From an uncultured Thermoproteales archaeon (GTDB lineage Archaea; Thermoproteota; Thermoprotei; Thermoproteales; Thermoproteaceae): DNA of 64,000 nucleotides. Shown in pieces: positions 24,625-61,594 of this stretch (its first letter is position 1; every line of letters starts with the position of its first letter). The stretch is from contig CALJAK010000005.1 in assembly GCA_938027595.1 (NCBI GenBank), positions 1-64,000 on the forward strand. The letters are read 5' to 3'. Below the pieces are notes generated by a model. The model saw nothing but the letters and a program-made list of their open reading frames with translations, ran no database searches and was not told the DNA's origin. The position numbers and the translations under genes are program-made.

Positions 24625-25255
24625 CATAACTAGAGCTGGGAGACAACAGCCAGTATATGGCTTCAGCCGCCTCTCTGGGCGTCGCCAATCTCTTCAGCAG
24701 AGTTCTCTCTCTAAATCTACTCAACTCAACTTCGTCAATCCACTCAACCCACTTAGTCTCCACTGGCCCAAACGCCACTGAGTTCACTCTAATTGGGCTG
24801 AGAATTTTCGCTAAGCTTCTCGTGAGCGAGATCAACGCGCCTTTCGCCACGGCGTAGGGAACGCCGTACACATCGCCCACTATAGCTGGCGTAGATGTGG
24901 CGAACACCACCGAGGAGTTGGTTTTCAAATTCGGCGCAAACGCCTTGACTACGTTGAAGCTACCCACCACATCTATTTTGAACACTTCTAGAAAATCGTC
25001 GCCACTTAACGCGTCAATTTTCTTATTCCACAACTCCCCACTCCCGTGGCCGTGGAGTAAAGCCAACCCATCTACGTCGCCTACTTCTTCAGCCACCTCG
25101 GCGAGGCACTGGACGTCTAAAACATCACAGTTGTAATTCACATCTGCGTTTTTCCCCGACCTAGAAATTCCAATTACGTAATCTCCCCTCTCTCTCGCTA
25201 GATTCACTAGAGCGCTGCCGATACCCCCACTCGCGCCAGTTATTACAATCTTCAT
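24581..25255 (-). CDS. Short-chain dehydrogenase/reductase
   Basis: This is a classical SDR with the cofactor loop TGASGGIGSA, a substrate-side serine (ATSTPAIVGD), the catalytic YxxxK (YAVAK) and a C-terminal GQLLIVDGGESL. Its ATG at 25255 overlaps the folE stop by 4 bases, so the two are co-translated. The link to GTP cyclohydrolase I raises a pterin-reductase role, but nothing in the sequence proves this. Confidence 0.85.
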   Translation of the reverse strand: MKIVITGASGGIGSALVNLARERGDYVIGISRSGKNADVNYNCDVLDVQCLAEVAEEVGDVDGLALLHGHGSGELWNKKIDALSGDDFLEVFKIDVVGSFNVVKAFAPNLKTNSSVVFATSTPAIVGDVYGVPYAVAKGALISLTRSLAKILSPIRVNSVAFGPVETKWVEWIDEVELSRFRERTLLKRLATPREAAEAIYWLLSPSSSYVTGQLLIVDGGESL

Positions 25256-25812
25256 CTCAACGGCCTTCTGCAAGTCAACATGACGGAAATGTCTCCCCTC
25301 TTCGCTTCAGTGACCATATTGTGGTGCTCGTCTCTCGCCCCCCTGACGTATGAACACATATGTATACCACACACTTTTACATAAACCGCCCTAGCTCTCA
25401 GTTTATCCATCAGCAAGTCGGCAAGCCACTCTGTATATCTCTCTTGCATTATCGGCCTAGCCGCCGCCCACTTCACTAACTTGATTACCTTACTGAGGCC
25501 CGGCACTTTGCCGCTCGGCACATACGCCACCGAAACTCTCAATATGATCGGCAACAGATGGTGTTCGCAGATAGACACAGCGCTCACGTTCTCCACGACT
25601 ACGGGCCCCAATTCTGCCTCGTACTCCAGGGGGAAGAACACTATCTCCGGCGGCGGCTCTCTCAACCCCCTAGTGAGTTCCTCCATGGCTTTTACAAATC
25701 GCTTTGGCGTGTTGACCAAGCCGGGTCTAGAGAGATCCTCACCCAGATGTCTCAACAAGAGCTCTACCCCCCGCTCTGGCCTCCCCTCAGAGCTCTCCCT
25801 CTCCCGTAACAC
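25252..25812 (-). CDS. folE: GTP cyclohydrolase I
   Basis: FolE converts GTP to dihydroneopterin triphosphate, the entry step to pterins and to the 7-deazaguanine precursor preQ0. The zinc ligands are present (Cys and His in SICEHHLLPI; Cys in GIHMCSYVRG), as are YTEWLADLL and the ending AKRGDISVML. Most archaea use the FolE2/MptA type, so the type I enzyme is notable. I chose the GTG at 25812 because a TATA box (25831-25840) lies 24 bp upstream, inside the glycosyltransferase gene. Starts up to 25869 are in frame. It overlaps that gene by 49 bases. Confidence 0.9.
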   Translation of the reverse strand: MLRERESSEGRPERGVELLLRHLGEDLSRPGLVNTPKRFVKAMEELTRGLREPPPEIVFFPLEYEAELGPVVVENVSAVSICEHHLLPIILRVSVAYVPSGKVPGLSKVIKLVKWAAARPIMQERYTEWLADLLMDKLRARAVYVKVCGIHMCSYVRGARDEHHNMVTEAKRGDISVMLTCRRPLR

Positions 25813-26720
25813 GTAGAAAGTTCGAAATTTCTTTTTAAACACAAACGACGCCCCCGCCACTTGAAACACTTCCTAGGTATAGACGCGATGAACACCGCCG
25901 CTTGTATCGGCCTCTCCAGCGGCGACAAGACCACTTGCCCCCAATCCACCCGACCCAACGCTCTCCGTGAACGCAAGGCAGTTCTCACGGCGTGTATCAC
26001 AAAGAGAGCTGGAAAGAACAACGCAGCGGCGGTCCAGAGAGTGTAGTAAGCCAACTCTAGAGACCAGAGCAAGGGATTTCCAAACTTAGCGGCCACGGCT
26101 TGCCTGACGTAAAAACCGCCATCTGCCTTCTCCATGGGCACGAGAATGGGCAAGACTTCAATCTCGTCAGCGATTGCCGTCAGAGCCATGTCGTCAATTG
26201 GACAACTCAAGAGAGCCTCTACAGCTTCCCGCTTCTTGTAGCTCGGCACCGCCATGGCGCCTCCGTAGAGAAAACGAGTGCGCCTCCAGACCATCCAATC
26301 GAAGCCGCCTAGAGAGAAAGCGTTTTGTAACTTGTCCAAGACCCATCTGTAGGCCGTGACGAATTTGCCGCAGCTGGCGTTTTTCAAAATCTCAACCCAA
26401 ACCCCCGGCACTACGTCGTCGTCTATGAAGACGTAGGAATCCGCCTCTACGGACTCCAATAGAGTTGCCAACGCGCCGGACTTGCCCATGTACTTATTCA
26501 CTAAACACTTCACGCCCAGCGCTTCGACTACCCTCGCGTCTTCCTCATTGTCTACTATGACGTAATCTACGTAATTTCTATGTCTCGCCACTCTGGCGGG
26601 GTCTACAGTGGGCATAGCCACTACCACACGACATCGCTGACCGCCGGCGGGTTGTGGCAGAGTTAACTCTCTGGCCAAGTGGATTATTTCGTAGAGGAGT
26701 ATTGGGATCGCTATGTGCAT
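25764..26720 (-). CDS. Membrane-bound family 2 glycosyltransferase
   Basis: The 318-residue protein has an N-terminal hydrophobic helix, a GT2 catalytic domain with the donor/metal motif FIDDDVVPGVW and an acceptor-side CPIDDMALT (a D,D motif like ceramide glucosyltransferases), and two to three C-terminal membrane helices with a basic tail. It probably makes a glycolipid at the inner membrane face. The ATG at 26720 fits the TATA element shared with nuoD; longer frames would run into nuoD. The 3' end contains the folE promoter. Confidence 0.75.
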   Translation of the reverse strand: MHIAIPILLYEIIHLARELTLPQPAGGQRCRVVVAMPTVDPARVARHRNYVDYVIVDNEEDARVVEALGVKCLVNKYMGKSGALATLLESVEADSYVFIDDDVVPGVWVEILKNASCGKFVTAYRWVLDKLQNAFSLGGFDWMVWRRTRFLYGGAMAVPSYKKREAVEALLSCPIDDMALTAIADEIEVLPILVPMEKADGGFYVRQAVAAKFGNPLLWSLELAYYTLWTAAALFFPALFVIHAVRTALRSRRALGRVDWGQVVLSPLERPIQAAVFIASIPRKCFKWRGRRLCLKRNFELSTCYGRGRALRGGQSGG

Positions 26721-26739
26721 GACTGAATAGAAATAATAG

Positions 26740-26746
26740 TTAAAAA
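26740..26746. promoter_or_regulatory. Shared TATA element, glycosyltransferase and nuo operon
   Basis: The ttaaaaa element is centred about 22.5 bp from the glycosyltransferase ATG (26720, minus) and 23.5 bp from the nuoD ATG (26766, plus). No second TATA-like sequence is in the 45-base gap. Confidence 0.55.
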
Positions 26747-26765
26747 CGAGGTGAGATAAATACAT

Positions 26766-56634: not shown

Positions 56635-56772
56635 CTAAGCCGCCTCCTCCAGTTCGTCGATTATACTTCTCAACTCGTCGATTGCCTCCTCGACTGCGTC
56701 CCAGTCTCTATCCCCCACGGCGGTTTCTAGAGAGTCTAACACACTTCTCAATTTCTTGACGTAATTCTCCAC
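56635..56772 (-). CDS. 45-residue acidic helical microprotein upstream of tpiA
   Basis: The frame begins at a GTG 25 bp after a TATA element (gataaatatc, about 56792-56801) and stops two bases before the tpiA ATG. It encodes a strongly acidic two-helix sequence ([37 protein letters not shown]). The promoter position, the good heptad pattern and the tight coupling to tpiA suggest a real small protein. It has no recognised family. Confidence 0.5.
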
Positions 56773-56841
56773 ATGGCAAAGTAAAGCTAGATATTTATCT
56801 ATTTCTCAAATTCCCCCATGTGATTATGTGTAAACGCGGCG

Positions 56842-57403
56842 TTATTCTAAACCAACAGCCACGGCGTAGTCCCAAACTTTCCGTAACACATCTACATGTT
56901 CTTCTAGGGTAGTAGCCATGGGCATCAAGAACACGCGTTCTCTATTCAATTTGTTCACGTAAGTAATTCTCTAACGTCATCGACGCCTCTACGAACTGAA
57001 CCAAGCCTTCGGGTTGTTTACGTAAAAATTGTCGAGAGACACGCCGACGCCGGCGTTGGAGGGAGAGACATCGTAAAAATCGACACATGCATCCAGTAAT
57101 TCACTCGGTCTATAGACGCCGCTAGTTTCAACCTCCACAGTGCCTAGAGATTTCAACCGACATGCTAGCGTTTCTAATCCCCTATTTTGCCAAAACAAAG
57201 GCTCCAGTTATGACTACATGTCCAACTCTCAGTTTGTTAACTCTCTCCCAAACTTGCTCTACAGACATCTCCACACCCCCCTCGAAACTCCACGAGTATT
57301 TAGTGTCGCAATACACACACCTAACGGGACATCCAGCTTACGAAAACAGCCGGCTTGCCCCAGACCCTCGCCTTGGAGAGAAGTAAATATATCAAATTCT
57401 CAT
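56842..57403 (-). pseudogene. queE: Frameshifted 7-carboxy-7-deazaguanine synthase (QueE)
   Basis: QueE is the radical-SAM enzyme that makes the 7-deazaguanine ring of preQ0, the archaeosine precursor. Read across all three minus frames, the region gives a near-complete QueE: IFTSLQGEG, GKPAVFV, the radical-SAM motif AGCPVRCVYCDTKYSWSF, VEQVWERVNKLRVGHVVITG, TVEVETSGVYRP, DFYDVSP..NAGV and a C-terminal VFLMPMATTLEEHVDVL. At least six indels break it: after codon 3, before GKPAV, before AGCP, at the GGEP motif, after the KAWF stretch, and twice near 56965-56985. Neighbouring genes are intact. It lies 6 bases behind the PadR gene. Confidence 0.85.
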
Positions 57404-57409
57404 AAAAAA

Positions 57410-57853
57410 TTATTGGGGAGTTTTTTCGATTTTTTGGAGTGTTTCTATTATGCGCCTAATTTTTTCTATGTACGGCTTTACTTTCTCCGGTTCTGAGGTG
57501 GCTAAGTCAGCTAGGTAAAGTGCCCAACTGTCTACCTCTTCAATTATCTCGTCTACAGTTCTAGGCTGTCCCCACCTAAATGGGGTTTTGAGCCATGGAA
57601 TTGTCTTCAGCGCCGATCTGCCGACTTCAGTCAACTCATAACGTCCGTCCGCCCTCTTCTTTACCAATCCGTCTCCCTCCATCTGTCTCAATAGTGGATA
57701 TATAGACCCCGGGGACGGCCTCCAGAAACCCCATGTGGAGTCTTCTACAAATCTTATAATCTCGGCGCCGTTCTGCGGCTTCTCTGACAACGCCCATAAT
57801 ACCATCTCTCTAAGTCCCCTCCCCCTGAGGAACACCCAAGGCGGCGGCCCCAC
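57410..57853 (-). CDS. PadR-family transcriptional regulator
   Basis: The 147-residue product has a PadR winged helix (GLREMVLWALSEKPQNGAEII, SPGSIYPLLRQMEGDGLVKK, DGRYELTEVGRSAL) and a C-terminal helical dimerisation region. The GTG start fits a TATA element centred near 57877-57880. The broken queE lies just downstream on the same strand, so PadR may have controlled it or merely precede it. Confidence 0.87.
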   Translation of the reverse strand: MGPPPWVFLRGRGLREMVLWALSEKPQNGAEIIRFVEDSTWGFWRPSPGSIYPLLRQMEGDGLVKKRADGRYELTEVGRSALKTIPWLKTPFRWGQPRTVDEIIEEVDSWALYLADLATSEPEKVKPYIEKIRRIIETLQKIEKTPQ

Positions 57854-57936: not shown

Positions 57937-58818
57937 GTGAGATTGTTGACATTTAGAAAAAACGGCGTTAGGAAAGTGGGGTTGTACATAGATGGGCGGG
58001 TGGTAGATCTCCCACGTGCGTACATGAGACACTTCTCTACAGACACGGCGCCTAGCTTTCTGTACGACATGAAGAAGTTAATCGCCATGGGGGAGCCCGC
58101 GTTGGAAATTGTGAAGAAGATAGCCACAAAAGGTCCGCCCGTTACTAACGCCATTTGGGAACCCCCAGTGCCCAACCCAGAGAAGATACTCGCGGTCGCC
58201 ATAAACTATAGAGCACATGGAGAGGAGTCAGGTGTCGCGCCGCCAGTTAGGCCTTACTTCTTCTCTAAGTTACCCAACGCGCTAGTTGGACATGAGGGCA
58301 GAGTAATAAAACCAAAAGTGTCGAAAGCGGTAGATTGGGAGGTAGAGTTGGTGATGGTTATTGGCAAAGTCGGGAAATATGTGGAGGTAGAGAGAGCGAT
58401 GGATTACGTCTTCGGCTATATGGTAGGTAACGACATTTCTATGCGAGATTGGCAATTTCCCCGAGACCCCCAGCTGGGGCCTCAGTGGATATGGGGCAAG
58501 TCTATGGACACCGCCGCGCCTACGGGTCCATATATTGTCACAAAAGACGAATTGCCAAACCCCCACGACGTTACGCTGAGGCTCAGAGTAAACGGACAGA
58601 TAGAGCAAGTGGGCAACACCAGAGACCTCATCCACAGCATGCCGCAGTTGATACACTGGGCGTCGCAGGGCATTACGCTGAAGCCCGGCGACCTCATATT
58701 CACAGGCACACCACCTGGCGTTGGTTACGCCAAGGGGAGGTATCTAAAAGGCGGAGACGTGGTGGAGGCCGAGGCAGACGGCATCGGCACATTGAGAAAT
58801 TACGTCGTAGAAGAATAA
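57937..58818 (+). CDS. Fumarylacetoacetate hydrolase-family protein
   Basis: The 293-residue product has an N-terminal family domain and a C-terminal FAH catalytic core: AVAINYRAHGEESG, the metal ligands in DWEVELVMVIG, FGYMVGNDISMRDWQ, GKSMDTAAPTGPYI and FTGTPPGVG. The family includes hydrolases, decarboxylases and hydratases of 2-oxo acids, so the reaction is not fixed. The GTG start lies 26 bp after atatttaaaaac (57907-57918). Confidence 0.87.
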   Translation: MRLLTFRKNGVRKVGLYIDGRVVDLPRAYMRHFSTDTAPSFLYDMKKLIAMGEPALEIVKKIATKGPPVTNAIWEPPVPNPEKILAVAINYRAHGEESGVAPPVRPYFFSKLPNALVGHEGRVIKPKVSKAVDWEVELVMVIGKVGKYVEVERAMDYVFGYMVGNDISMRDWQFPRDPQLGPQWIWGKSMDTAAPTGPYIVTKDELPNPHDVTLRLRVNGQIEQVGNTRDLIHSMPQLIHWASQGITLKPGDLIFTGTPPGVGYAKGRYLKGGDVVEAEADGIGTLRNYVVEE

Positions 58819-60125: not shown

Positions 60126-60926
60126 GTGAATATTATCGAGGCGACGCTAGTGGGGGTTGTACAAGGCGTGTCTGAGTGGCTGCCCATAAGTAGCAAGACA
60201 CAAATCATGTTCGCCGCGATGTACATCACCGGAGCCCCACCGGCGTTTGCTTACTCTCTCGGATTGTTTCTAGAAGCTGCATCTGTCTTGGCGGCGTTGT
60301 TGTACTTCAGAAGTGTATACCTAAAAATATTGAGGGGGCTATTGGGAGATGTAGAGGGAAGACGGTGGCTCACATATGTAGCCATAACTACGCTAGTCAC
60401 AGCAGCCGTAGGTGTGCCGCTTTATTTAGTCGCCAGACAAGCTCTCGCCGGGGGGGCCGCGGGTTGGCTCATGACAGCTCTGGGTGTCGCCATAGTGGGG
60501 AACGCAGTGGCGCTACGCCGAGCTCACTCAGCCAGTGGGTTGAAGAGCTTCAGCCAGATGACTCTTAGAGACATGGCGATAGTGGGCTTGGCGCAAGCTC
60601 TCTCGGTACTACCCGGAGTCAGCAGATCCGGCGCCACGACTTCAGTCTTACTCCTACTTGGCTATGCCCCTGCCGAAGCTTTCAAAGCTTCTTTTGTGCT
60701 AGTGCCAGTGGCGGGACTCGGCGCGGCTACGTTGGCTTACCTAGCTGAGGGGAGCGCTGTGGTTACTACAGAGTCACTCATAGCCATGGCGGTGGGAGTT
60801 GTGGTGAGCTTAGTCACTATAGAGGCTCTGTTAAAGTTCGCCAGAAGTAGACAAGTCTTCCTAGTGAATCTAACTGTGGGAGCGTTAGCAATCGCTGGTG
60901 GGTTGTTATACGTGTTGGGGAGATAA
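60126..60926 (+). CDS. uppP: Undecaprenyl-diphosphatase-type lipid carrier phosphatase
   Basis: UppP/BacA recycles polyprenyl diphosphate to the monophosphate used as a sugar carrier. The 266-residue membrane protein has the two family motifs, VQGVSEWLPISSKTQ and LPGVSRSGATTSVLLLLG, and seven to eight helices. In archaea the substrate would be a dolichyl-type diphosphate used for glycosylation, so it may serve the GT2-GtrA and GT-C enzymes in this window. It overlaps the convergent transporter gene by 21 bases. Confidence 0.9.
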   Translation: MNIIEATLVGVVQGVSEWLPISSKTQIMFAAMYITGAPPAFAYSLGLFLEAASVLAALLYFRSVYLKILRGLLGDVEGRRWLTYVAITTLVTAAVGVPLYLVARQALAGGAAGWLMTALGVAIVGNAVALRRAHSASGLKSFSQMTLRDMAIVGLAQALSVLPGVSRSGATTSVLLLLGYAPAEAFKASFVLVPVAGLGAATLAYLAEGSAVVTTESLIAMAVGVVVSLVTIEALLKFARSRQVFLVNLTVGALAIAGGLLYVLGR

Positions 60927-61574
60927 TTGCCGCTGTACGCTACGTCTAGCGCCGTATATGAAGACAGCCTCTAGCGGTGTTTGTATCCACTTCACTAATA
61001 TCTGTCCAGTCACCACGTCCCATAGAGGACCGAAGGCGATTGTGATGAACAACACGGTGTCCACGACTTGCGCCACTAGTGTAGAGCTGTAGACTCTAGC
61101 TAATATGTGCAGTCTCGGCCACTTGGTCACAATGTACACATCAACAGTAGAAGAAACTATGTATGCAATGAGCGACGCTATGGCTATCCTAGCCGAAGGC
61201 GCAATTACGCTGTCTACCACGGCTGCTCTCTCGGCAAACCAAACCGGCGGCGGCAGTGTGGTGGCTGACCAAGCTGCTAGCGCCACCGCTGCTTGGAAGA
61301 AGAACCCCGCCCGCACAACGGACAGTGCCAACCGCCGTCCGTATAATATAGCCAAGGCGTCTAAAATGGCGACGTTAGTCATGAAAATGACTGTGCCCGC
61401 TGGAGCTACGCCAACGCCGTAGTCTACAAGTCTGTTAGCTATAAACTGCGCCGCCGTCAACGTGCCGAAGAAGAGACCTACTAGCGTAATGTCTGGCCTC
61501 CATAGGCGTATTATTGCGAGATATATCAAATACAAAGCCAGAGCGTATCCCCAAGCCGCCAGTAGTGGATACAC
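60906..61574 (-). CDS. Queuosine-precursor (YhhQ/QPTR) family transporter
   Basis: The 222-residue membrane protein has six to seven helices with features of COG1738: VAPAGTVIFMTNVAILDALAILYG, RAGFFFQAAVAL, ARIAIASLIAYIVSSTVDVYIV and SSTLVAQVVDTVLFITIAFG. Bacterial members import preQ0 or preQ1, 7-deazaguanine precursors of modified tRNA bases. In archaea the cargo would feed archaeosine. The GTG at 61574 fits the palindromic TATA shared with trpC; TTG starts at 61586 and 61592 are too close to it. See the broken queE 3.5 kb away. Confidence 0.78.
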   Translation of the reverse strand: MYPLLAAWGYALALYLIYLAIIRLWRPDITLVGLFFGTLTAAQFIANRLVDYGVGVAPAGTVIFMTNVAILDALAILYGRRLALSVVRAGFFFQAAVALAAWSATTLPPPVWFAERAAVVDSVIAPSARIAIASLIAYIVSSTVDVYIVTKWPRLHILARVYSSTLVAQVVDTVLFITIAFGPLWDVVTGQILVKWIQTPLEAVFIYGARRSVQRQLSPQHV

Positions 61575-61594
61575 TATGCGCCGCAAGTCCAAGG

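Follow-up and report, generated by a model that had tools for sequence, protein, structure and literature searches.

Recent inactivation of queE by small deletions in a Pyrobaculum-like genome, with archaeosine most likely still made from imported preQ0

The minus strand of positions 56795-57403 in the window (the whole 64,000-nucleotide stretch of DNA analyzed) carries a collinear remnant of QueE, the CDG synthase, at its ancestral locus. We consider it likely that queE was inactivated recently and that archaeosine is still made in this organism, from imported preQ0. The data support loss of de novo preQ0 synthesis; they do not support loss of archaeosine, which the first-pass annotation had implied.

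The remnant and its landmarks are as follows.

56795..57403, minus strand: queE remnant (7-carboxy-7-deazaguanine synthase pseudogene), from DNA alignment, frameshift-aware alignment and translation
56795-56797, minus strand: original stop codon of queE, from translation of the remnant
57224..57334, minus strand: surviving radical-SAM segment GCPVRCVYCDTKYSW, from translation

The first-pass annotation had read a nearly whole QueE across the minus-strand frames and had proposed a frameshift-aware alignment to Pyrobaculum QueE. In that alignment the pieces, which are spread over three minus-strand frames, proved collinear with the intact Pyrobaculum protein L002: with frames restored, 192 codons align, of which 134 (70%) are identical and none is an in-frame stop. 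The alignment scored 518, against -111 to -55 when this DNA was shuffled 15 times. A single piece of 69 residues has orthologues in relatives (64-73% identity within the genus), all of which lie within open frames of 220-258 aa. The 3' end had been placed at 56842, which is too short; RITPRLHIITWGNLRNR followed by its stop reads through intact to 56795. The remnant starts with an ATG at 57403 that is 2 nt out of frame relative to the body. Collinear homology, ancestral locus and disabling changes together identify the locus as a queE pseudogene.

Seven net frame changes are required in the frameshift-aware alignment to L002, in addition to two in-frame losses.

near 57394, minus strand: frame break of -2 at residue 4 (frameshift-aware alignment)
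57360-57363, minus strand: frame break of -5 at V15-N16 (frameshift-aware alignment)
57338, minus strand: frame break of -5 at R25-A27 (frameshift-aware alignment)
57205 (site 57200..57206), minus strand: frame break of -5 at G72-E74, removing GG of GGEP (both alignments)
56997, minus strand: frame break of -1 at K145 (frameshift-aware alignment)
56949-56989, minus strand: frame break, net about -14 nt over residues 148-165, placement ambiguous (frameshift-aware alignment)
56850, minus strand: frame break of -1 at L199 (frameshift-aware alignment)
at R65, minus strand: in-frame loss of -3 (frameshift-aware alignment)
junction 57060..57061, minus strand: in-frame loss of -6 at K122-L123, the Lys-Leu of PKLSN (both alignments)

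In a multiple DNA alignment with 11 intact relatives the gaps are confined to the window copy, and the remnant has no internal insertions; the +1 steps printed by the aligner at G18 are an equivalent notation of a -5. Alignment events at 56815 were rejected as a cut-off artefact. The earlier picture of repeated breaks by small indels, about six in number, thus holds for the breaks themselves, which are about seven and consist of deletions only. Residues that are invariant in nine relatives and deleted here include L26, A27, G72, G73, K122, L123 and K145, such that the remnant lacks the GG of GGEP (lost, as had been noted, to an indel, the 5-nt deletion at 57200-57206), the LA of RLAG and the Lys-Leu of PKLSN, a pair invariant in 9 relatives. 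Both the CxxxCxxC iron-sulfur motif (GCPVRCVYC) and VETSG are readable on the minus strand, as first reported, but in different frames with the GGEP deletion between them. Compared with a Pyrobaculum-type radical-SAM QueE, the remnant shares the collinear codons, CxxxCxxC, VETSG and the neighboring genes, whereas it differs in its frame breaks, in the missing GGEP, RLAG and PKLSN residues and in having no full-length product. A single open radical-SAM frame is absent, and no frame connects the iron-sulfur motif with the remainder of the barrel. It is not plausible that the remnant gives a functional QueE product.

The genes around queE are listed below.

56635..56772, minus strand: small ORF of 45 aa just downstream of queE, from comparison with relatives
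57410..57853, minus strand: PadR-family regulator, intact, from Pfam match and comparison with relatives
57937..58818, plus strand: fumarylacetoacetate hydrolase-family gene, intact, from Pfam match and comparison with relatives

The 45-aa ORF is conserved next to queE in WP30, P. oguniense and a Pyrobaculum MAG, which indicates that the locus is ancestral, and the fumarylacetoacetate hydrolase-family gene also lies near queE in WP30. That adjacent genes are intact, as the first-pass annotation stated, is borne out by matches of the TIM, PadR and fumarylacetoacetate hydrolase-family neighbors to their Pfam families. Greedily chosen ORFs account for 60.7 kb of the 64-kb window (~95%), an upper estimate because a few ORFs are probably spurious, two of them inside the queE remnant; none of ten window ORFs picked at overlaps or gaps belongs to a family split over two frames. 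Dense coding and intact neighbors argue against general sequence error. The breaks could still be sequencing or assembly errors in an intact gene, in keeping with a substitution pattern near that of a constrained gene and with the stop-free restored codons, but several separate 5- and 6-nt deletions within ~600 bases, next to intact neighbors and in a window so densely covered by ORFs, make this very improbable. Two further observations concern the window. On the minus strand, 55916-55971 matches Rfam RF02793 (Pyrobaculum asRNA3) with 59.1 bits, above the gathering threshold of 46; this site is immediately downstream of the gene for triosephosphate isomerase. The longest stretch lacking an ORF of 60 aa, 26313-26765 (453 nt), yielded neither a tRNA nor an Rfam match.

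At positions of the remnant that are conserved in relatives, changes seen in this genome only amount to 15% for the first codon position, 11% for the second and 48% for the third. These values are rough, as sites are not independent and the alignment is of nucleotides, with some remnant codons possibly out of register. The third-position excess (Fisher p = 4e-7) implies that selection acted on queE for the greater part of the branch. At positions 1 and 2 the remnant has changed somewhat more than the intact pathway genes taken together (p = 0.004), but no more than either QueC (p = 0.24) or QueF-L (p = 0.20) taken singly. Because substitutions still favor third positions, inactivation late on the branch fits the sequences best; the retained bias agrees with the earlier reading, drawn from the few point changes, of a recent loss. 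That deletions are so many and extra substitutions so few is only partly explained, most simply by a strong bias toward deletion.

A search of the genome (G000, assembly 96.5% complete) for a second queE, queC and queD, which the first-pass annotation had called for, recovered queC and a QueD-like gene and no queE: only the remnant pieces match QueE, other hits reaching at most 36 bits and being generic radical-SAM proteins. A plasmid collection searched with the remnant also gave no match. A second QueE, unassembled or non-orthologous, might replace the broken copy, as in G005, a case of QueE replacement within the genus, and the assembly may lack ~3.5% of the genome; G000, however, has no match to the divergent QueE and carries the PTPS usual for the genus, so that we regard such a replacement as improbable. 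In G005 itself, the genus types of QueE and PTPS are replaced by a divergent and a canonical form, respectively, possibly through transfer, and PF02592 has no match.

G005:C10:2518-3180 and G005:C18:18986-19318: loci of the divergent QueE and canonical PTPS of G005

The G000 assembly is 1.24 Mb (96.5% estimated completeness) vs. 1.8-2.5 Mb in near-complete relatives of the genus, and may represent a reduced genome.

Genes for GTP cyclohydrolase I, a QueD-like PTPS, QueC, arcTGT and QueF-L (archaeosine synthase) are all open in this genome. Two further genes of the window bear on the pathway.

25252..25869, minus strand: intact gene of the GTP cyclohydrolase I family, which acts first in the pathway (PF01227-type match)
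60906..61592, minus strand: queuosine/preQ0-precursor transporter homologue (PF02592, TIGR00697), intact, from profile matches

None of 31 relatives matches PF02649 (MptA/FolE2), and the window enzyme is of the PF01227 type. The PTPS, which the genus shares, matches QueD models weakly and well below the TIGR03367 cut-off, so its assignment as QueD is tentative. QueC is below the TIGR00364 cut-off, yet it is full length, with 69-74% identity to its orthologues. arcTGT is present and conserved (529.8 bits to TIGR00432, cut-off 350), and QueF-L matches PF14489 above cut-off; both are 69-74% identical to orthologues, and neither shows decay, changes on their own branch being few at conserved codon positions 1 and 2. 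QueF-L of P. calidifontis acts as an archaeosine synthase (PMC5485725).

The transporter homologue scores 66.9 bits to TIGR00697 "queuosine precursor transporter" (cut-off 50.95) and lies ~3.5 kb from the remnant. Its family occurs in 27 of 31 genomes, both with and without QueE, and nearly all Pyrobaculum carry it, including those bearing queE; it therefore permits queE loss and is not a marker of it. In WP30, queE and the transporter are far apart (983 kb vs. 1,861 kb), so their closeness here may be due to chance. YhhQ of E. coli is required for preQ0 transport, and salvage has been predicted in archaea, though substrate specificity differs within COG1738 (PMC5372724).

Under the proposed scheme, several small deletions would recently have inactivated queE, and neither CDG nor, hence, preQ0 would be made de novo; preQ0 would enter through the COG1738/PF02592 transporter, arcTGT would insert it at G15 of tRNA, and QueF-L would amidinate it to archaeosine. 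The transporter probably carries preQ0 and the cell probably makes archaeosine; arcTGT, QueF-L and a transporter homologue, the gene set for preQ0 salvage, are all present. The open, conserved arcTGT and QueF-L and the intact transporter homologue nearby make salvage likelier than loss of archaeosine. Salvage is further supported by G015, G019, G020 and G022, which lack QueE and keep both arcTGT and PF02592. Against it, G027 lacks matches to both QueE and the transporter, QueC and the QueD-like gene are kept although pure preQ0 salvage does not need them, the assembly lacks ~3.5%, and the transporter is permissive rather than specific. Both QueC and the QueD-like protein, we infer, either have yet to decay or fill a different role. 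The retention of QueC with its cysteine-rich region makes it conceivable that a precursor upstream of preQ0, e.g., CDG, is salvaged and then converted by the cell; we think this unlikely, and found no description of CDG-type 7-deazaguanine salvage in archaea in the literature.

It is also unlikely that archaeosine has been lost entirely, with the remaining genes awaiting decay or filling other roles. No second queE was found, a recent loss would leave the other genes intact, and T. kodakarensis survives without archaeosine at lower temperature; yet arcTGT and QueF-L are undecayed, lineages without QueE retain arcTGT, and T. kodakarensis queE mutants, which lose archaeosine and whose tRNA melting temperature is ~2 C lower, do not grow at 91-93 C (PMC6393311, PMC9095486). 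By analogy, a Pyrobaculum devoid of archaeosine would be surprising, which favors preQ0 salvage.

Among Thermoproteales assemblies at least 90% complete, QueE is absent beyond the generic radical-SAM level and arcTGT is kept, as in this genome, in G015, which also retains QueC-type, PTPS and QueF-L matches, and in G019, G020, G022 and G027; G025 was omitted, its sole match being a C-terminal piece possibly cut by a contig end. These five differ from the present genome in that they yielded no QueE remnant that could still be read, for which reason their losses look older. The present case resembles the COG1738 (YhhQ) precursor salvage predicted for bacteria and archaea (PMC5372724) in that downstream enzymes and a transporter homologue are kept and an upstream enzyme is lost; it differs in that only QueE is known to be lost, while GTP cyclohydrolase I, the QueD-like protein and QueC remain. 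Thus it is a snapshot of a known kind of change rather than a new kind of system: a switch from making to importing a tRNA-stabilizing precursor, apparently caught at a stage when the lost gene can still be read. Archaeosine is expected to matter for high-temperature growth in this lineage. This genome and its QueE-less, arcTGT-bearing relatives together make it possible to test whether hot-spring archaea share precursors.
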